Assembly: GCF_004364125.1 (NCBI RefSeq)
Contig: NZ_SNZV01000007.1
Coordinates: 1 to 64,000 of the forward strand
Length of the DNA: 64,000 nt
DNA from: Sphingobacterium paludis
GTDB taxonomy: Bacteria; Bacteroidota; Bacteroidia; Sphingobacteriales; Sphingobacteriaceae
Direction: 5' to 3'
Shown here piece by piece: positions 50,536 to 64,000 of the stretch. Each line of letters starts with the position of its first letter. The stretch's first letter is position 1. The position numbers were made by a program, and so were the translations under genes. The notes under the pieces were generated by a model. It was not told the DNA's origin. It searched no databases and worked only from the letters and a program-made list of their open reading frames with translations.

Positions 50536-50568
50536 TTTGATCGAAATAAATTCTAAAACGTACCTTTG
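50536..50568 (+). promoter_or_regulatory. Promoter of mnmE
   Basis: TTTG (50536-50539), a 21-base spacer, TACCTTTG (50561-50568). The ATG at 50573 begins only 4 bases after the -7 element, so the message should be leaderless or nearly so. Confidence 0.8.
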
Positions 50569-50572
50569 CAGG

Positions 50573-51949
50573 ATGTCAACTGATTTAATTTCGCAAGATA
50601 CCATTGTCGCACTTGCCACATCCTCCGGGGCAAATGGCGCTATTGCAGTCATTCGACTATCGGGTTCGGAAGCCATAGCGATAACAAATGCGGTATTCAA
50701 AGGGAAAGATCTCCTCCAGCAAGCTTCGCATACGATTCACTTCGGTACAATTCGTGACGGTGAGGAAATAATAGATGAGGTACTGGTTTCTTTATTTATA
50801 GGGCCAAACTCCTATACCAAAGAAAACGTCGTCGAAATCTCGACACATAATTCCAAGTATATCGTTGAACGCCTTATTGGTTTGCTGCTTAAAAAAGGCG
50901 CGCGGGCGGCGCGGGCCGGAGAGTTTACTTTGCGCGCATTTTTGAACGGCGGTTTAGACCTATCCCAGGCGGAAGCTGTTGCCGACCTCATCGCATCTAC
51001 CTCTGCGGCATCGCATCAAGTGGCTATGCAGCAAATGCGCGGTGGCTTTTCCAATCAGCTGAAAAAATTACGGGAAGACCTTGTTCATTTTGCATCGCTA
51101 ATCGAGCTGGAACTGGATTTCGGCGAGGAGGATGTAGAGTTCGCGAATCGCGATCAGTTGAAGTCGCTTATTCTCCATATCGAGCAGGTTATTCGTAGAC
51201 TCATATCGTCGTTCGAGCAGGGCAACGTGCTGAAAAACGGCGTTCCTGTTGTTATCGCTGGTAAACCCAATGTAGGGAAATCTACGTTGCTTAACGCGTT
51301 ATTGAATGAAGAACGGGCCATCGTTTCTGATATTGCAGGGACAACGCGGGATACCATAGAAGACGAAATCAATATCCAAGGTATCACGTTTCGTTTTATC
51401 GACACCGCCGGCATTCGGGAAACGCTGGATGTCATCGAAGCAAAAGGCGTCGAACGCACCCGTGATAAGATGAAACAAGCACGGTTGATTATTTACTTAT
51501 TCGACCCCACACAAGACTCACTGGAAACTGCCCAGCAACAGATCACAGAACTTTCTGCGTTAAACATTGCATTTGTAACGCTGATCAATAAATCTGACCT
51601 GCTCTCGGCGGAGCAACGCCGCGACTTTGAAGTGTTGACTCCCGTATATATATCGGCAAAAGAACAGGTGGGTATCGAAGAATTAAAGACAGAGCTGCTT
51701 CGCCAGGTAAACCTGCTCCATATACAGACCGACGATGTGCTGGTAACCAACATCCGACACGTAGAGGCGCTACAGAAAACGGAGGACGCTTTAGCACGCG
51801 TGCGCTATGGCATAGATAATCCCGTGACGTCTGATTTCTTGGCCATGGATATTCGGCAGGCGCTGCACCACCTCGGTGAAATTACCGGCAGCGTAACAAC
51901 CGATGATTTGCTGGAAAACATCTTTTCTAAGTTTTGTATTGGCAAGTAG
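50573..51949 (+). CDS. mnmE: tRNA uridine-5-carboxymethylaminomethyl(34) synthesis GTPase MnmE
   Basis: A 458-residue GTPase that, with MnmG, modifies the wobble uridine of tRNAs. N-terminal formyl-THF-binding domain (about 1-120), helical domain, and an inserted G domain with G1 GKPNVGKST (about 228-236), G3 DTAG, G4 NKSD. The C-terminus FCIGK is intact; its Cys is the family's functional Cys. ATG 50573 was chosen because the promoter ends 4 bases before it. A mobile element starts immediately downstream. Confidence 0.96.
   Translation: MSTDLISQDTIVALATSSGANGAIAVIRLSGSEAIAITNAVFKGKDLLQQASHTIHFGTIRDGEEIIDEVLVSLFIGPNSYTKENVVEISTHNSKYIVERLIGLLLKKGARAARAGEFTLRAFLNGGLDLSQAEAVADLIASTSAASHQVAMQQMRGGFSNQLKKLREDLVHFASLIELELDFGEEDVEFANRDQLKSLILHIEQVIRRLISSFEQGNVLKNGVPVVIAGKPNVGKSTLLNALLNEERAIVSDIAGTTRDTIEDEINIQGITFRFIDTAGIRETLDVIEAKGVERTRDKMKQARLIIYLFDPTQDSLETAQQQITELSALNIAFVTLINKSDLLSAEQRRDFEVLTPVYISAKEQVGIEELKTELLRQVNLLHIQTDDVLVTNIRHVEALQKTEDALARVRYGIDNPVTSDFLAMDIRQALHHLGEITGSVTTDDLLENIFSKFCIGK
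51932..51949 (+). other. Putative left attachment site at the 3' end of mnmE
   Basis: The last codons of mnmE, encoding FCIGK, are TTTTGTATTGGCAAGTAG. The same gene end is the known target of the Salmonella genomic island SGI1. Here a tyrosine recombinase gene starts 190 bases downstream, so this is the most likely junction core. The matching right-end copy was not seen within the window, as expected if the element extends beyond 64,000. Confidence 0.4.
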
Positions 51950-52138: not shown

Positions 52139-53266
52139 ATGAAATCTTACAGAGTTACGCTACGTGAGCAAAAGAACAAGTCAGGTAGAACCAGTCTTTA
52201 CTTGGACATCTACCCACCGATTTACGATGAAAAGAAAAAGAAAGAAACGCGTCGTAAGTTTTTAGATCTTTATCTGTTTGAAAAGCCGACAAACAAGATC
52301 GAACGTGAGCATAATAAGTTCACTCTAGTTAAAGCCAAACAGATAGAGAGTGAATGGCAAATGGATCTGCTAGGTCAAACGCTTGATATGCCATTTATCT
52401 CCAGTAAAGATTTAGACTTTCTAGCATACTTTAAAAGTATCGTCAAGAAACGGTATACTTCTAAAGGAAATTACGACAATTGGTTGTCAACGTATAACTA
52501 TTTGGAAGACTATACTGACGGACAATGCCAAATGTCTACAATTGATGAAGCCTTTTGTCAAGGTTTCAAAGATTACTTGGATAGCTGCTATACAAAGAAA
52601 TCTTCCGCTTATAAACTATCTGCCAATTCAAAATACAGCTACTTCAATAAATTCCGTGCAGCTATCAAGCAGGCAATGGAAGATAAGCACCTTCACTATA
52701 ATCCGATTTTGAGAATTAAAGCGTTTCCGCAAGGAGAAAGCTTCCGTGAATTTTTGACACTGGATGAAGTTAAAAAATTGAAAGCTGTCCGCTGTGACAA
52801 TCCCGTTCTGGAAAAAGCTGCATTCTGGTCGATCCGTACGGGTATGCGCTGGGGAGATTGTATGAAGCTAAAATGGGAAAAAATACAGTATTCAGAAACG
52901 AGTGGTTACTTTATTCGTTATTTTCAAGGAAAAACACAGACTTGGGAAACACTGCCGATCACAAATGAAGCAGTAGCGGATTTAGGAGAGTTTTCTAAAA
53001 ATCAGTCCGATCTTGTTTTTAGTGGATTGACTTATAGCTCCCATAATAATTTTCTGCTTGCAAAATGGGCAATGAATGCCGGTATTAATAAGCATATTAC
53101 CTTTCATTGTTTTCGCCACACCAACGCTACGTTATTGATTAGTGCTGGAGAAGATATTTATACGGTTTCAAAAATGTTAGGACACAAAGAGCTCAGAACT
53201 ACGGAAATATATGCCAAAGTGTTAAATTCAAAGAAGGTTGAGGCTGCTAATCGTATAAAATTTTAA
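52139..53266 (+). CDS. Tyrosine-type site-specific recombinase (integrase)
   Basis: A 375-residue integrase. The N-terminal arm-binding domain is followed by a SAM-like core-binding domain (about 95-200) and the catalytic domain. Catalytic residues: Arg near 232 in RTGMRWGD, His-x-x-Arg near 323-326 in FHCFRHTNA, His in LGHKELRTTE, and the Tyr nucleophile near 357 in TEIYAK. It should integrate and excise the element at the mnmE end. It is the first element gene and is followed after 4 bases by the next gene. Confidence 0.95.
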   Translation: MKSYRVTLREQKNKSGRTSLYLDIYPPIYDEKKKKETRRKFLDLYLFEKPTNKIEREHNKFTLVKAKQIESEWQMDLLGQTLDMPFISSKDLDFLAYFKSIVKKRYTSKGNYDNWLSTYNYLEDYTDGQCQMSTIDEAFCQGFKDYLDSCYTKKSSAYKLSANSKYSYFNKFRAAIKQAMEDKHLHYNPILRIKAFPQGESFREFLTLDEVKKLKAVRCDNPVLEKAAFWSIRTGMRWGDCMKLKWEKIQYSETSGYFIRYFQGKTQTWETLPITNEAVADLGEFSKNQSDLVFSGLTYSSHNNFLLAKWAMNAGINKHITFHCFRHTNATLLISAGEDIYTVSKMLGHKELRTTEIYAKVLNSKKVEAANRIKF

Positions 53267-55373: not shown

Positions 55374-56183
55374 ATGAAAAAATGGGCTGTTCGCGCAGTC
55401 AAGACATCGCTCATACCCGATGAAATCAATAAGCATGCAATAATTCTGGGAAACGGCCTACAAAACGCAGGTAAGAGTACGTATCTGAAAAAATTGATGC
55501 CTGTATCGTTGCTAAAATATTACGGTGAGAATCTTTCACTGGATAAGGACGGAAGAGTCAAGCTTTGTAAAACATTTATAACCAATTTGGAGGAGTTACA
55601 GTCGTTGAATAGGCACGATACCGATAAGGTTAAAGCAATGATTTCGCTGCAAACCGTCAATGACCGCTTGCCTTTTGACAAAAAGAATTCATTTCTGAGC
55701 CGCACATGCAGTTTTGTGGGAAGTACGAACAAATCTGAATTTCTAATTGATGAAACGGGAAATGTGCGCTGGATCGTCTTTGAGATATCCGGGAGAATCG
55801 ATTACGAACGCTACAACATTGAGTTTGATGTCGATAAGTTTTGGACGCAAGCCTATCATATTTTTCAACACGTGCCAACCTTCAATTCAGCGTTGACGGC
55901 AGAAGATGTAAGAATAAACGAAGAGCGAAATGAGCGCTTTATGATCCTGTCTGTAGAATGTGAAGGGGTACTCAAATTTTACGAAAATAGTGAGGATATG
56001 GATGATTTCAGGACAGCTACGGAGATAATCTCCGAACTTTCGTTGATAGGAATGAAACTGAATAGCATAAGGATGGGATCCGCTTTAAAGAAATATGGAT
56101 TTCAACGAGTGAAACATGCCCAAAGGCAAGTATACGGCTATTTAGCTAAGCCGAAATTCACTGATTTACCCATTAAGTTTTAA
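55374..56183 (+). CDS. VapE/VirE-type P-loop protein, C-terminal part
   Basis: A 269-residue fragment of a VapE-family (virulence-associated E) protein. The Walker A-type motif GNGLQNAGKST lies near residues 27-37, and the region VGSTNKSEFLIDETGNVRWI carries the family's arginine/box III features. The coding sequence continues upstream, out of frame with the N-terminal fragment, to about 55263. The only in-frame start in that stretch is this ATG. VapE proteins are primase-polymerase-associated ATPases of mobile elements and probably help initiate element replication. The pair of fragments is likely one interrupted gene, or relies on slippage. Confidence 0.75.
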   Translation: MKKWAVRAVKTSLIPDEINKHAIILGNGLQNAGKSTYLKKLMPVSLLKYYGENLSLDKDGRVKLCKTFITNLEELQSLNRHDTDKVKAMISLQTVNDRLPFDKKNSFLSRTCSFVGSTNKSEFLIDETGNVRWIVFEISGRIDYERYNIEFDVDKFWTQAYHIFQHVPTFNSALTAEDVRINEERNERFMILSVECEGVLKFYENSEDMDDFRTATEIISELSLIGMKLNSIRMGSALKKYGFQRVKHAQRQVYGYLAKPKFTDLPIKF

Positions 56184-56392: not shown

Positions 56393-56422
56393 TGTTTTTA
56401 TAAAAAAATCATTGTGAATACT

Positions 56423-57334
56423 ATGAATTGTACACAAGCAAAACAGATTTCGTTACTGCAGATTTTATATAAGTTGGGACATAAAGAAGTCTTTACCCGA
56501 ACGAATAGGGGAACAACATATTATTGGTTTATCTCGCCATTCAGGTCTTCGGAGGCAAAGCCTAGTTTTTCGCTCAATAGCGAGTTGAATACCTTTTACG
56601 ATTACGGTAATGGCATCTCTGGGACAGTCATCGACTATATCTGTGCTTATTATCACTGTGAAATTCCCAAAGCCCTTGAACTGCTTGACGATTTTGATTT
56701 TTCTTTTTCCCAGCAAAATATAACTAATGAATTTATTGCTGAGAAAAGAGAAAATAAGCTTGGAGAATATGAAATAACAGCTATCAATACAATAAAACAC
56801 CCAGCCTTGGTAAAATACCTAGCTAAGCGCAAGATAGCCGCAAGTCTTTATTCAAAGTATCTTGTCGAGATCAAATACAATATGAATAGACGTTCTTTTT
56901 TTTGTGTTGCTTTTCAAAATGTCAACAAGGGTTATGAGGTTAGCTACGAATATAAAAAGAATGGCACCGATGAATTCATACGTGTAAAAACATGTCTTGT
57001 CTGTAAAGATATTAGCTTTTTTGCTAGGGGCAGTACGAGCGTGGTTGTTACAGAATCCTGGAGCGATTTCTTAGCGCTATTAACACTGTACCCAAAGATG
57101 GAAGATCGTAATGATTTTATTATTCTCAACAGTGTTTCTATGCGTGAACGATTAATCGATAAAATCAAACTTTTGAATTACTTGACGATTTATTCGGCGG
57201 TCGATAATGATCCGGCAGGCAATGATATTTTGAAAGTGCTCGTTGAGAATTTTGCCGATCGAGTGATTCCCCTAAATCCGTTTTATTCCGATTATAAAGA
57301 TGTCGCAGAGTATCTTGAAAAGGAATGCAAATGA
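56423..57334 (+). CDS. Toprim-domain primase (element-encoded)
   Basis: A 303-residue primase-like protein. An N-terminal CHC2-like region (ISPFRSSEAKPSFSLNSELNTFYDYGNG, split around 35-62) has the conserved aromatic and Gly pattern but no zinc cysteines or histidines. A Toprim fold follows with Glu near 209 in VTESWSD and the Asp-x-Asp pair near 260 in AVDNDPAGND. It likely primes element DNA replication. It follows the iteron array. Start: the ATG at 56423 matches the family; a GTG at 56414 is possible. It has no operon partner before it but faces the same way as the mob genes. Confidence 0.88.
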   Translation: MNCTQAKQISLLQILYKLGHKEVFTRTNRGTTYYWFISPFRSSEAKPSFSLNSELNTFYDYGNGISGTVIDYICAYYHCEIPKALELLDDFDFSFSQQNITNEFIAEKRENKLGEYEITAINTIKHPALVKYLAKRKIAASLYSKYLVEIKYNMNRRSFFCVAFQNVNKGYEVSYEYKKNGTDEFIRVKTCLVCKDISFFARGSTSVVVTESWSDFLALLTLYPKMEDRNDFIILNSVSMRERLIDKIKLLNYLTIYSAVDNDPAGNDILKVLVENFADRVIPLNPFYSDYKDVAEYLEKECK

Positions 57335-57346
57335 TTACAAAAATTA

Positions 57347-57413
57347 GGATAGCAAGACATGGATAGAGTCCCTCTCAATAATATTGAGAAGGTCTTCTAT
57401 CCGCTTGCTATCC
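57347..57413. other. Three-tier palindrome, candidate origin of transfer
   Basis: Outer stem GGATAGCAAG/CTTGCTATCC (57347-57356 and 57404-57413, 10 of 10). Middle stem GGATAGA/TCTATCC (57361-57367 and 57396-57402). Inner stem TCTCAAT/ATTGAGA (57373-57379 and 57383-57389). GGATAG recurs in the outer and middle tiers. It starts 13 bases after the primase stop and ends 22 bases before mobC. Origins of transfer of mobilizable elements sit in just such a place. It could also be an attenuator or terminator. Confidence 0.6.
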
Positions 57414-57435
57414 TCAAACTGCACTTTGTTTAGTT

Positions 57436-57774
57436 ATGAAGAAAAGAAAATTACATCCTGATGAAAAGCGGGTTTTTGAAGTAAAAATCCGCTTGAATAT
57501 TGAAGAGAAACAAAAGCTTGAAAAGATTATTGATCTGACCAACACTCATGCTCCCGATATATTCAGAAAGCTGTTAATGAAAGGAAAGCTACCTGATGCG
57601 TCAGTTCCGCTTTTAGATATACAAACATACTACCAAGTGAGAAAGATCGGTCTGACCTATAATGCATATATGAAAGCGATTAATCAAAGCCGAATTACCG
57701 AGATAGATCAGCATATCGGCAAGCAGGTTTCGGAGATCTTAAATATAGTGCAAAATAAAATACGGAAGTTATGA
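57436..57774 (+). CDS. MobC-like mobilization protein
   Basis: A 112-residue basic DNA-binding protein. The N-terminus (KRVFEVKIRLNIEEKQKLEK) resembles the ribbon-helix-helix/MobC family that binds the origin of transfer and recruits the relaxase. A helical region (RKLLMKGKLPDASVPLLDIQTYYQVRKI) follows. It begins 22 bases after the three-tier palindrome and overlaps the relaxase start by 4 bases (ATGA), so the two are coupled. Confidence 0.85.
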   Translation: MKKRKLHPDEKRVFEVKIRLNIEEKQKLEKIIDLTNTHAPDIFRKLLMKGKLPDASVPLLDIQTYYQVRKIGLTYNAYMKAINQSRITEIDQHIGKQVSEILNIVQNKIRKL

Positions 57775-58952
57775 TTGCTATCCAACAAGTACACAGCTTC
57801 GCTGACGCACTGAAATACAATGAAAAGAAAATGAATTTGCAGGATGTAACCCAGCGCGCAGAATTATTGGATCATAATTTTTTAGACCCGACGAGTGAAG
57901 CTGTTTTGAAAGAGGTCAAAATGATCAACAGCCTGCATAGCGGTCGTATGAAGAATGACGGATATCACGTTGCCTTGAGTTTTTCAGAAAATGACAAAGT
58001 TTCGGACAAAATGCTTAAATCCATTGCAGATGATTATAAAAAAGGAATGGGATTTAGTGATGATCATTTGTTTTTGCTTTACAAGCATAACGATGGTGAG
58101 GATCATAAACATATTCACGTTCACCTTTTACTGCATCGGCTCTCCATTGATCCTGAAACGGGTAAAACAAAATTGGTCAGTGACTCAAATAATTATCAGC
58201 GTAGCGAGAAGTTGTCTCGGCAAATAGAGCAAAAGTATGGACTAGAGGTTGTGAAGTCATCAAAAGAAGCACAGGATCGAGCGCCAAATAAAGATGAGCT
58301 GGAAATGATCGAGCGTACTGGAAAACTTTCTGATCGGATGCTGATACAAGCGAAGGTTAAGATAGCTTTATCCGATGCCAATTCTTTGAATTCTTTCATC
58401 CATAACTGCGCTGAAAATGGAGTTTATCTACTGTTCAATCAGTCTACGACAACTGGCTTCATAAGTGGTGTAACCTATGTAATGGACAATGGATTTATAG
58501 CAAAAGGGCAAAAACTGGGAAACCAGTACAAATGGAATAACTTAAAAGACAGAATCAACTATGAACAAAGCAGAGATGGCGCAGCGGCTCGCTCAGCAAA
58601 CAGTGAAACAAGAGCAAGATTTAAAGATATACTTGAAAAATCAAGTCGAGGAGCTGAAAATCAGCATCAAGAAATTATCAGAACTCCAAATAACGGTAAC
58701 GGAGAACCAAGCCGTATTACATCAAAAGATGAATACGATGTCCAAAATGTCTACAACGGTAGATTTGACTCCAATTCTGGACGAAATGACAGAAGTGAAG
58801 AAACAGAACAAGAGATTGAAGAGGCAGTTTCTAATCAATTTTCTATTGGTGCAAGTGCCGTTATTAGCGGTCTTAGCGGCTTACTTGGTAGTGTTGGCGG
58901 TGACGAGGTAGATGAAGATGAAAAACGGCGAAAAAGAAGATTAAAGCGTTAA
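57771..58952 (+). CDS. Relaxase (MobP-type mobilization nuclease)
   Basis: A 393-residue relaxase. The catalytic Tyr is near residue 16 (LKYNEKKMN), and the metal-binding His motif is HKHIHVHLLLHR (about 111-122), typical of Bacteroidota relaxases. It nicks the origin of transfer and pilots the DNA in conjugation. It is encoded directly after mobC with a 4-base overlap. From about residue 264 the protein becomes hydrophilic and low in complexity, ending in a KRRKRRLKR basic tail. That same stretch of DNA carries another open frame (58561-58911). Confidence 0.93.
   Translation: MIAIQQVHSFADALKYNEKKMNLQDVTQRAELLDHNFLDPTSEAVLKEVKMINSLHSGRMKNDGYHVALSFSENDKVSDKMLKSIADDYKKGMGFSDDHLFLLYKHNDGEDHKHIHVHLLLHRLSIDPETGKTKLVSDSNNYQRSEKLSRQIEQKYGLEVVKSSKEAQDRAPNKDELEMIERTGKLSDRMLIQAKVKIALSDANSLNSFIHNCAENGVYLLFNQSTTTGFISGVTYVMDNGFIAKGQKLGNQYKWNNLKDRINYEQSRDGAAARSANSETRARFKDILEKSSRGAENQHQEIIRTPNNGNGEPSRITSKDEYDVQNVYNGRFDSNSGRNDRSEETEQEIEEAVSNQFSIGASAVISGLSGLLGSVGGDEVDEDEKRRKRRLKR
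58561..58911 (+). CDS. Coiled-coil membrane protein embedded in the relaxase gene (+1 frame)
   Basis: A 116-residue frame lies wholly inside the relaxase gene in the +1 frame, with an ATG start. Residues 1-88 are a dense coiled coil (VKQEQDLKIYLKNQVEELKI, then ILDEMTEVKKQNKRLKRQ). Residues 90-115 are one hydrophobic helix (FLINFLLVQVPLLAVLAAYL...). This is more protein-like than the relaxase frame over the same stretch. Mobilization genes nested in relaxase genes are known in ColE1 (mbeB and mbeD within mbeA) and RSF1010 (MobB within MobA); RSF1010 MobB has a membrane part. By analogy it may stabilise the relaxosome or attach it to the coupling protein or membrane. No homology was checked. 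Confidence 0.65.
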   Translation: MNKAEMAQRLAQQTVKQEQDLKIYLKNQVEELKISIKKLSELQITVTENQAVLHQKMNTMSKMSTTVDLTPILDEMTEVKKQNKRLKRQFLINFLLVQVPLLAVLAAYLVVLAVTR

Positions 58953-58960
58953 GCAGTACA

Positions 58961-59033
58961 TAATTATATAATGCTATCATTATATAATTATATCATTGTA
59001 ACACTATATAAATATATAATGTTACAATGATAT
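58961..59033. terminator. Two AT-rich hairpins between convergent genes
   Basis: First stem TAATTATATAATG and complement (13 bp, 58961-58990). Second stem ATATCATTGTAACA and complement (14 bp, 58990-59003 and 59020-59033). They share one base and lie between the relaxase and lipoprotein genes, facing each other. They may end both transcripts or mark a recombination spot. Confidence 0.6.
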
Positions 59034-60969: not shown

Positions 60970-61085
60970 ACCAATACGATAGCTTACGCTATTTCGTTCA
61001 AAAAATTAATGGTATAAATATACGGATTTACGGACATATTGGGGATTTTTTGTTGTCTTAGACGGTATAATCCATAAATTTGGAG

Positions 61086-61712
61086 ATGCAAATTGTCGCC
61101 ATTTCTGATACGCACGGAAAACATCGAGATCTAAATATCCCTGATGGTGACATTCTTATTCACGCGGGCGATGTTACTCGAGGTGGAACAAAAGAACAGG
61201 TCGTAGATTTTCTAAAGTGGTTTGCTGAACAAAAGCATACACACAAAATATTTATTGCAGGGAATCATGATTTCTTTTTTGAAGAGTCGGAGTCAAAAAA
61301 GATTAGCAGGATAATCCCTAAAAATATTATCTATCTAAATGATTCCGGTGTGGAGATTAATGATCTAAAATTCTGGGGTTCACCTATTACGCCGTGGTTT
61401 AATAACTGGGCTTTTAACCGTAATCGGGGTAGTGAAATTAAGAAGCATTGGGACTTGATTCCGAATGATACAGATGTGCTGATTACACATGGTCCTCCTT
61501 TTGGTATTTTGGATGAAACGGTTTATGGAAAAAGGACTGGATGTGAAGAATTACTTTTACGAGTCTATCAAGTGAAACCCCAATATCATATTTTTGGTCA
61601 TATACACGAGGATTACGGAAATTTCACGAAGGGAGAAACAATATTTATCAATGCCAGCGTGTTAGATGACTGGTATGAGATGAAGAATAAACCAGTAATT
61701 TTAGATTTGTAA
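61086..61712 (+). CDS. Metallophosphoesterase (calcineurin-like)
   Basis: A 208-residue phosphoesterase with all metal-binding motifs: DTHG near residue 9, GDVTRGG, GNHD near 60, THGPPFG and GHIHED. It is related to small Ppp/YfcE-type phosphodiesterases or nucleic-acid phosphatases. The start is the ATG at 61086; a TTG two codons earlier is less likely. It is separated by 2 bases from the DUF3024 gene, so they form a pair. Confidence 0.92.
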   Translation: MQIVAISDTHGKHRDLNIPDGDILIHAGDVTRGGTKEQVVDFLKWFAEQKHTHKIFIAGNHDFFFEESESKKISRIIPKNIIYLNDSGVEINDLKFWGSPITPWFNNWAFNRNRGSEIKKHWDLIPNDTDVLITHGPPFGILDETVYGKRTGCEELLLRVYQVKPQYHIFGHIHEDYGNFTKGETIFINASVLDDWYEMKNKPVILDL

Positions 61713-62659: not shown

Positions 62660-62866
62660 ATGCCGAAGAAACCAATAAACAGATTGAAAGTGGTACTAGT
62701 AGAACAAGGCAAAACCAGCAAATGGCTTGCCCAGACGCTTAACAAGAACGAAACAACCGTTTCTCGTTGGTGTACGAATGAAGTACAACCGAGTTTGGAT
62801 ACTTTGTTGCAAATTGCTGCTTTATTAGAAGTTGATATTAAAGAATTATTGAATTCGAGTAAATAA
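62660..62866 (+). CDS. XRE-type helix-turn-helix regulator of the type I R-M operon
   Basis: A 68-residue Cro/CI-type DNA-binding protein (TSKWLAQTLNKNETTVSRWC HTH). Its stop codon overlaps the hsdM start by 1 base (TAATG), so it is the first gene of the restriction-modification operon. It probably controls expression so methylation precedes restriction, like a C protein. Confidence 0.9.
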   Translation: MPKKPINRLKVVLVEQGKTSKWLAQTLNKNETTVSRWCTNEVQPSLDTLLQIAALLEVDIKELLNSSK

Positions 62867-64000
62867 TGAGTTCCAAATCGAAAATAACACAGTCTCAATT
62901 AGAGCAATACCTGTCCAAAGCTGCCTGGATCCTGAAAGGTCCGGTAGACGCTTCGGACTTTAAAGTTTATATATTTCCCTTGCTATTTTTTAAGCGGATA
63001 TCCGACGTCTATGATGAAGAGTTTGCTCTGGCGATGGCCGAGTCTGACGGCGATACTGAATACGCATCACTTCCCGAGTTTCACCGATTCGTTATTCCTG
63101 AAGGCTGCCATTGGAAAACCGTACGAGAAACCACAGACAATGTAGGGTTGGCTATAGAAAAGGCTCTGAGAGGAATAGAACAGGCCAATCAACAATACTT
63201 GTACGGAATATTTGGCGATGCACAATGGAGTAATAAAAGTAAACTATCTGACCGTTTATTAATTGATCTTATTGAGCACTTTTCACAATACGAATTATCT
63301 AACTCCAATGTAGAAGCGGATATACTTGGGAATGCCTATGAATATCTCATCAAGCATTTTGCCGACTTGACCAACAAGAAAGCTGGAGAATTCTATACGC
63401 CACGGTCTATCGTCCGTTTATTGGATCTCATATTGGACCCCAAAGCCAGTGAGTCGGTTTACGATCCGGCTTGTGGTACAGGGGGCATGTTGTTAGAATG
63501 TGTCGATCACTTACGCGAAAAAGAAGAAGATTACAGAACGCTTAAACTGTTCGGACAAGAGAAAAACCTGACATCGAGTGCCATTGCTCGCATGAATATG
63601 TTTCTACACGGTATGGAAGATTTTAAAATTGTACGTGAAGATACCTTACGAAATCCTGCTTTCTTTACCTCTGACGGTTTGCAAAAATTCGATTGTGTGA
63701 TCGCCAACCCACCATTTTCTTTAAAGGATTGGGGAGCTGACAATTGGACAAATGATCCTTATGGCCGAAATATCGCGGGCGTTCCACCGAAAGGAAATGG
63801 CGATATGGCATGGGTGCAACATATGATCTCCTCCATGAACGATAAGGGTAGGATGACGGTTGTGTTACCTCATGGTGTTCTTTTTAGAAAAGCCTCGGAA
63901 CAGCGGATTCGGAAAGCGCTTTTGGAAATGGATCTGCTGGAGGCCGTTATTGGGTTAGGACCGAATATTTTCTACGGTACACAGTTGGCCGCTTGTGTGC
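62866..64000 (+). CDS. hsdM: Type I restriction-modification DNA methyltransferase HsdM (partial)
   Basis: At least 378 residues of HsdM, cut by the right edge. The N-terminal helical domain is followed by the N6-adenine methyltransferase motifs DPACGTGGM (motif I, about residue 200) and NPPF (motif IV, about 281). It methylates adenine in the operon's target sequence and joins HsdS and HsdR. Those subunits are expected just beyond the edge. It starts 1 base inside the HTH stop codon. It was not visible as a closed frame because it has no stop in the window. Confidence 0.96.
   Translation, partial: MSSKSKITQSQLEQYLSKAAWILKGPVDASDFKVYIFPLLFFKRISDVYDEEFALAMAESDGDTEYASLPEFHRFVIPEGCHWKTVRETTDNVGLAIEKALRGIEQANQQYLYGIFGDAQWSNKSKLSDRLLIDLIEHFSQYELSNSNVEADILGNAYEYLIKHFADLTNKKAGEFYTPRSIVRLLDLILDPKASESVYDPACGTGGMLLECVDHLREKEEDYRTLKLFGQEKNLTSSAIARMNMFLHGMEDFKIVREDTLRNPAFFTSDGLQKFDCVIANPPFSLKDWGADNWTNDPYGRNIAGVPPKGNGDMAWVQHMISSMNDKGRMTVVLPHGVLFRKASEQRIRKALLEMDLLEAVIGLGPNIFYGTQLAACV

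Follow-up and report, generated by a model that had tools for sequence, protein, structure and literature searches.

The window, by which we mean the whole 64,000-nucleotide stretch of Sphingobacterium paludis DNA analyzed here, contains a locus whose natural reading, judged from its gene content, is an integrative mobilizable element (Table 1). An integrase gene of the putative element lies next to the 3′ end of mnmE, a site that also serves other mobilizable islands such as SGI1. Neither the window nor the genome yielded an attachment repeat matching the mnmE 3′ end, and the right end of the element was not found. Fifteen proteins of the element and its surroundings were scanned, and none was recognized as secretion machinery. 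The same genome has two PF12508 (TraM) loci elsewhere, which we take to indicate conjugation systems of the Bacteroidota type. Helper systems are therefore likely to be present.

Table 1. Features of the mobilizable locus and of the frame nested in its relaxase gene
Feature	Position	Strand	Details
mnmE	50537-51949		MnmE helical domain, E = 1e-54
Tyrosine integrase	52139..53266	+	PF00589, E = 4e-22; adjoins the 3′ end of mnmE
VapE-like (helicase-type) protein	55374..56183	+	PF05272, E = 8e-30
CHC2/Toprim primase-like protein	56414..57334	+	PF13155, E = 2e-7
Candidate oriT	57346..57414	+	Inverted repeat AGGATAGCAAG/CTTGCTATCCT, upstream of mobC
MobC-like small protein	57436..57774	+	Directly upstream of the relaxase, 4-bp overlap; assigned by synteny
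MOBP-type relaxase, host of the nested ORF	57771..58952	+	393 aa; PF03432, E = 3e-24, above cut-off
Relaxase Tyr264 codon, TAT	58560..58562	+	Its last two bases and the next G form the nested ATG
Nested gene	58561..58911	+	+1 frame of the relaxase, ATG, 116 aa; helical, probably coiled-coil, C-terminal membrane anchor
Membrane helix of the nested protein, residues 94-112	58840..58896	+	Strongest 19-residue window; mean Kyte-Doolittle 2.6
Relaxase C-terminal tail, acidic then basic	58912..58949	+	Beyond the nested stop; candidate type IV secretion signal

The MobC-like protein gave sub-threshold matches only (PF19514 MobC_2, E = 0.004; Bacteroid_MobA, E = 0.05). As for the candidate oriT, repeats with an AGCAAG/CTTGCT core lie upstream of the relaxase in 6 of the 13 relatives examined, being the second-best repeat in L007; five of the other seven have no repeat of at least 9 nt, and two have unrelated repeats. 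Downstream of the relaxase, a calcineurin-like phosphoesterase gene (61080-61712) is located about 2 kb away, and a similar gene directly follows the relaxase in L015 and L021. The occurrence of this gene near the relaxase in three different elements perhaps reflects recurrent cargo. A frame resembling a type I restriction-modification methylase subunit (by eye; 62866-64000), which runs off the window, is possibly also cargo of the element.

The relaxase is 56% identical to that of S. cavernae, and His114, His116, and His118 are invariant in an alignment of 19 rows. Residues 294-381, which make up most of the overlap with the nested ORF, are without predicted structure in a model that is poor as a whole (mean pLDDT 36), and this part of the relaxase may be an unstructured linker. 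Past the nested stop, the relaxase frame takes up its own signal again: the net charge of the last 14 residues is +4 or more in 69 of 77 relatives, and this charged tail is a possible type IV secretion signal. Dense AT-rich hairpins, perfect or near-perfect, lie directly 3′ of the relaxase stop (58954-59033), with 14-nt arms that are 100% complementary and 21-nt arms that are 95% complementary.

The nested ORF lies fully within the relaxase ORF at an offset of 790 nucleotides (3 × 263 + 1), that is, in the +1 frame. A preliminary description of the locus had proposed here a 116-residue, ATG-started frame encoding a coiled coil and a C-terminal membrane helix. The ORF coordinates bear out the frame, and the hydropathy of residues 94-112 bears out the helix; the coiled coil is probable, given two long predicted helices and the names of the PDB matches. 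AlphaFold2 with a two-row alignment (the window protein and L044) predicts helices at residues 3-62 and 70-115 with a mean pLDDT of 84, and the A1 profile of the nested protein gave three matches against the PDB at E ≤ 0.1, all named coiled-coil constructs (best E = 1e-6). The nested protein is predicted to be a long helix that ends in a C-terminal tail anchor, and the helix is probably a coiled coil. A KR-rich stretch precedes the membrane helix, and four residues follow it. Lys and Arg residues are more numerous before the helix than after it in 69 of 70 relatives. Since an excess on one flank marks the cytoplasmic side (the positive-inside rule), the N-terminus is likely to be cytoplasmic and the protein tail-anchored. 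The membrane helix and the charge pattern are kept in relatives down to 16% identity with the window protein; the helix is weaker in L127 (1.61).

By itself, the nested ORF is weak evidence and only mildly unusual. A +1 ORF at least as long occurs in 4% of 2000 synonymous-codon permutations of the window relaxase (P = 0.04), and one of such length that also encodes a membrane helix in 0.4% of them (P = 0.004). Permutation was extended to 33 loci, among which L044 and L007 are one relaxase and the 33rd, L018, is without the nested gene. An equally long +1 ORF appears in more than 40% of trials for L005, L015, and L021. With the membrane helix included, the chance is at most 0.03 in 31 of the 32 gene-bearing loci, the exception being L005 (0.25). 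The comparison with relatives is decisive.

Conservation of the nested frame

Matches to the window relaxase occur in 253 of 399 genomes of its family and are mostly distant, while the nested protein searched alone has matches in 12 of the 399. Its profile matched 11 of 395 genomes of the phylum. Only three of these matches look real (the source genome, G036, and G072), all within the family of the window; the other eight are weak and partial. A census of 104 distinct relaxase ORFs was assembled from the loci that these and related searches returned, with further places fetched from the relaxase match list down to about E = 1e-20. The fragments G111:C1:770237 and G155:C1:2100917 (short, with several stops) were left out, as were weaker relaxase places and some places that came without a locus. 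A profile score of at least 224 delimits a clade of 78 relaxases; the next score is 133, and the other 26 relaxases score 133 or below.

The nested profile matches the overlapping +1 frame in 73 of the 78 clade relaxases, uninterrupted in 71; the other 26, all from Bacteroidota and more distant, have no such match. The frame is +1 in all 73 loci and ends 32-89 nt before the relaxase stop. It starts with ATG and an M[NS]K-like motif in 70 of the 73; L026 has no ATG at the usual start. Five clade rows, L018 and L099 (from one genome), L138, L069, and L135, give no match and have 5-12 stops in that frame. The relaxase ORF of L135 is broken, and those of the other four look intact. The nested frame is thus not strictly required, since four intact-looking relaxases lack it. 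In L104 and L120, a single stop codon interrupts the nested frame within an intact relaxase ORF, and only the C-terminal piece matched; these two loci are natural test cases for the dispensability of the nested protein.

A relaxase tree was built from 83 rows, with L135, L011, and L121 out, eight of the 26 distant rows in, and L104 and L120 counted as nested. It requires three label changes for the four gene-less rows and five for the nested label, though the tree is rough and its bootstrap not settled. The nested row L122, which has a long branch, is placed together with six of the distant rows; this grouping may weigh against a clean clade or may be a long-branch effect.

The position of the start should be noted. 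The relaxase codon over the 70 nested starts encodes Tyr in 69 cases and Asn in one. The start Tyr is TAT in 69 of 69 genes, while elsewhere in the same genes TAT accounts for 557 of 945 Tyr codons (59%); no probability is attached to this bias, as the sequences are related. An in-frame stop lies within 15 codons ahead of the nested ATG in 66 of the 70. No Shine-Dalgarno-like site precedes 67 of the 70 starts; such sites matter little in Bacteroidota. The N-terminal motif itself calls for caution. In the +1 frame, the relaxase sequence TAT GAR CAR nnn NGA GAY encodes M-[NS]-K-x-E; the relaxase motif Y-E-Q-x-R-D therefore dictates most of the common motif M[NS]KxE. The cyanobacterial relaxase L147 has the Tyr-Glu motif without the nested gene, indicating that the relaxase motif stands on its own.

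Differences per codon were counted in 25 pairs of loci, each locus being used once. At relaxase positions 1, 2, and 3, they amount to 0.143, 0.091, and 0.382 upstream of the nested start and to 0.296, 0.199, and 0.196 in the overlap. The drop at position 3 is marked (paired Wilcoxon p = 6e-8). Because relaxase position 3 is nested position 2, this pattern is the one expected if selection acts on a nested protein. In 21 of the 25 pairs, identity is higher in the nested frame than in the relaxase frame; it is lower in three (L137/L134, L017/L097, and L130/L129) and equal in one, the window's own pair L002/L005 (31% versus 31%). In L096/L016, position 3 rises in the overlap, from 0.02 to 0.07. 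Four pairs that lack the nested gene served as controls: three of them (L079/L082, L083/L085, and L074/L072) show an increase at position 3, and L099/L018 shows a slight decrease (0.28 to 0.19). Broadly the same picture emerged from 15 pairs compared earlier, which shared loci; in L002/L003, for example, identity is 70% in the relaxase frame and 79% in the nested frame.

Conservation of the frame in related relaxases had been set beforehand as one part of the test that could refute the gene, and synonymous-site conservation in the overlap had been proposed as a check. With 73 of 78 clade relaxases carrying the frame, the gene was not refuted, and the fall of position 3 from 0.382 to 0.196 over the 25 pairs agrees with the check. 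The case for coding thus rests on the conservation of the frame across the relaxase clade and on the codon-position signature, and the coding nature of the nested frame is very well supported.

Small proteins encoded within or beside relaxase genes

Searches for a known family to which the nested protein might belong gave, in Pfam and NCBIfam, matches at chance level or of coiled-coil type only. In Pfam, 30 nested proteins scanned at E ≤ 0.01 gave scattered single-member matches to 11 families, PF17511 not among them. In NCBIfam, the window protein matched no model above cut-off and, among the matches listed, no family was common to more than two of the 30 members; two members match TraP of IncI1 (best E = 2e-6 among the matches listed). 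Three nested proteins gave no match in PHROGs, and the window nested protein gave none by tblastn against plasmids. As far as the accessible text of the open-licence literature goes, no report of a nested or overlapping mobilization gene in Bacteroidota was found. The earlier statement that the gene is not a standard annotation for Bacteroidota elements is in line with this, as no Pfam, NCBIfam, or PHROGs model names the scanned proteins and that literature, in its accessible text, offers no Bacteroidota report. The available portion of a review of integrative mobilizable elements gives Bacteroidota elements none or one relaxosome accessory factor (PMC5704250).

The closest parallel is MobB of the IncQ plasmids (RSF1010/R1162; PF17511). 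In the accessible parts of the papers concerned, mobB is described as lying within mobA/repB in a different frame (PMC2200642), and IncQ MobB as having a membrane segment at its C-terminus and contacting MobA through its N-terminal part (PMC4655240). We examined 14 plasmid MOBP relaxases, all among the matches listed (40 of 226 records). In six (L045, L061, L150, L151, L152, and L153), all Proteobacterial, a +1 ORF with a membrane helix starts exactly at the codon homologous to Tyr264. Such an ORF is absent in the other eight, namely the cyanobacterial L147-L149, L156-L158, and also L154 and L155. In L045 and L061, the nested gene is annotated as MobB, and its ATG lies in Tyr248, which is aligned with Tyr264 of the window. 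In the RSF1010-type MOBQ relaxases L063 and L065, the MobB ATG is also on the aligned codon, in a weak alignment (profile score 2). Neither L062 nor ColE1 (L064) had a relaxase match in this comparison of start codons. The parallel with the nested mob gene of RSF1010, drawn in the preliminary description, is thus strengthened by the homologous start codon in the six Proteobacterial MOBP relaxases.

The window protein and IncQ MobB share the nested position, the +1 frame, the homologous start codon (firm for the MOBP relaxases L045 and L061, weak for the MOBQ relaxases L063 and L065), and a predicted helical N-terminal part followed by a C-terminal membrane domain. They differ in that IncQ MobB is longer (136-167 aa) with a longer tail past the helix, is known from Pseudomonadota plasmids, and in L045 and L061 has a host ORF that runs on into a primase. 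None of the 30 nested proteins scanned matches PF17511, whereas the positive controls L045 and L062 do (E = 4e-13 and 1e-82, respectively). Profile-profile alignment of the nested family and PF17511 by hhalign gave 20% over the first 13 residues and 54% over the membrane helix only.

MbeB (PF04837) and MbeD (PF04899) of ColE1 are likewise small helical mobilization proteins encoded with a MOBP relaxase, and their genes are nested in mbeA. In contrast to the window protein, MbeB has its hydrophobic segment in the middle of the protein and MbeD has none (both by eye), and ColE1 has two such genes. No MbeB or MbeB_N profile matched the nested proteins scanned, while ColE1 MbeB itself was detected at E = 4e-22. 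The nested ORF of small enterobacterial plasmids (L151 and L152) resembles the window gene in its +1 frame, homologous start codon, and membrane helix, and differs from it in its length (166 aa), its longer tail past the helix, and a sub-threshold PF17511 match (E = 0.006).

The more distant Bacteroidota relaxases tend to have a separate partner. A gene with one membrane helix directly follows 10 of the 13 short ones (268-371 aa; L070, L073, L074, L077, L078, L079, L082, L083, L085, and L090). A MobC coupling-protein-like product (by eye) follows 8 of the 13 longer ones (424-533 aa); one such follower was checked and matched NF041326 (E = 3e-82). The one-helix follower of the relaxases of about 320 residues is similar to the window protein in having a helical N-terminal part (by eye), one membrane helix, and coupling to the relaxase gene. 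It is separate rather than nested, however, and has about 55-105 residues after the helix. Five followers scanned against NCBIfam (L070, L073, L077, L082, and L085) gave no match above cut-off. Descent of the nested gene from this adjacent gene of the sister elements was considered and rejected, there being no profile-profile signal. As a membrane partner beside the relaxase is frequent (18/26), the nested clade can be seen as having placed one inside the relaxase gene.

Possible role and origin of the nested gene

We consider it likely that 58561-58911 is a real nested gene of the integrative mobilizable element, very probably translated, and that its product is a MobB-like factor coupling the relaxosome to the membrane. 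The coupling function is suggested by analogy: a MobB-like role is the most likely one because the same make of protein is found in the same place. Following this analogy, the ORF would be translated, the C-terminal helix of the product would sit in the inner membrane, and the cytoplasmic helical part would bind the relaxase or the relaxosome. The protein would then bring the relaxase-DNA complex to the coupling protein and the type IV secretion channel that a helper conjugative element supplies, with an effect on transfer. Bacteroidota integrative mobilizable elements move genes between bacteria, and the parts of their relaxosomes beyond the relaxase are poorly known. The nested gene adds a conserved part to the relaxosome region, one whose position within another gene makes it easy for gene finders and family models to miss.

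It is conceivable that the +1 frame is merely left open by the linker codons and that nothing is translated from it. Some weight comes from the permutations, which yield an equally long +1 ORF at a rate of 4% for the window relaxase and above 40% for three other loci, and from the N-terminal motif, which mostly follows from that of the relaxase. However, an ORF that also encodes a membrane helix is seldom produced by chance outside L005 (at most 0.03 in 31 of 32 loci), nested identity is mostly the higher one, the start Tyr is always TAT, and 5-12 stops interrupt the frame in those members of the clade that gave no match. The codon-position rates, which track the nested frame, speak strongly against an untranslated ORF, and we regard it as highly improbable. 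A constraint on the RNA or DNA (a structure, an antisense RNA, or a second oriT) instead of on a protein could by itself account for the synonymous constraint. Such a constraint would hardly be expected to have a three-base period set to the +1 frame or to keep a membrane helix and a charge pattern at identities down to 16%, and its probability seems close to negligible.

The remaining alternatives accept that the frame is translated. A +1 frameshift might join the frame to the relaxase, so that the product is a relaxase with a membrane helix at its end and no separate protein is made. A relaxase with such a membrane tail would also reach the membrane, the overlap frame is indeed +1, and a shift after the ATG is compatible with the sequence. 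On the other hand, the frame has its own ATG in 70 of 73 loci, 69 of them over the conserved Tyr codon, at which TAT is fixed; the stop within 15 codons before the ATG in 66 of 70 leaves little room for an earlier shift; and the relaxase frame retains its own charged C-terminus in 69 of 77 relatives. Frameshifting is thus improbable. A separate nested membrane protein may also have another job, such as that of an entry exclusion protein, a regulator, a membrane-active toxin, or a maintenance factor. Small helical single-pass proteins of mobile elements do fill roles of this kind, and MbeD, from the mob region of ColE1, is annotated as a mobilization/exclusion protein. The location inside the relaxase gene in all 73 census loci, the helical, tail-anchored build like that of MobB, and the one-helix membrane gene kept right after the relaxase by the sister elements (10/13) make another job rather unlikely, and favor the MobB-like coupling factor.

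Common descent with IncQ MobB is possible but unproved, as the start motif mostly reflects that of the relaxase. A tentative reading, to which we give somewhat less than even weight, is that one ancestral nested gene arose by overprinting at a conserved codon of the relaxase (in the Tyr-Glu motif, TATGA) and was kept in at least two phyla. A single origin would join IncQ MobB, the ORF of the small enterobacterial plasmids, and the Bacteroidota family; the sequences would have drifted beyond recognition, while the start codon, the frame, and the anatomy of a helix plus an anchor would have stayed. If true, few gene-within-gene pairs on bacterial mobile elements would be older or more widespread, and family models would have largely missed this one. 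The start codon common to the nested gene and IncQ MobB opens the age of a bacterial overlapping gene pair to testing.

The small enterobacterial plasmids provide a separate observation. The nested MobB-like ORF is found in 27 plasmid records at 88-100% identity, 26 of them at 4.3-5.0 kb and one at 35 kb. All 27 are typed as 'non-mobilizable' by MOB-suite, and no listed PLSDB feature names the ORF, the feature tables being incomplete. The plasmids of L151:1372-2856 and L152:1339-2835 also encode MobC and a relaxase.
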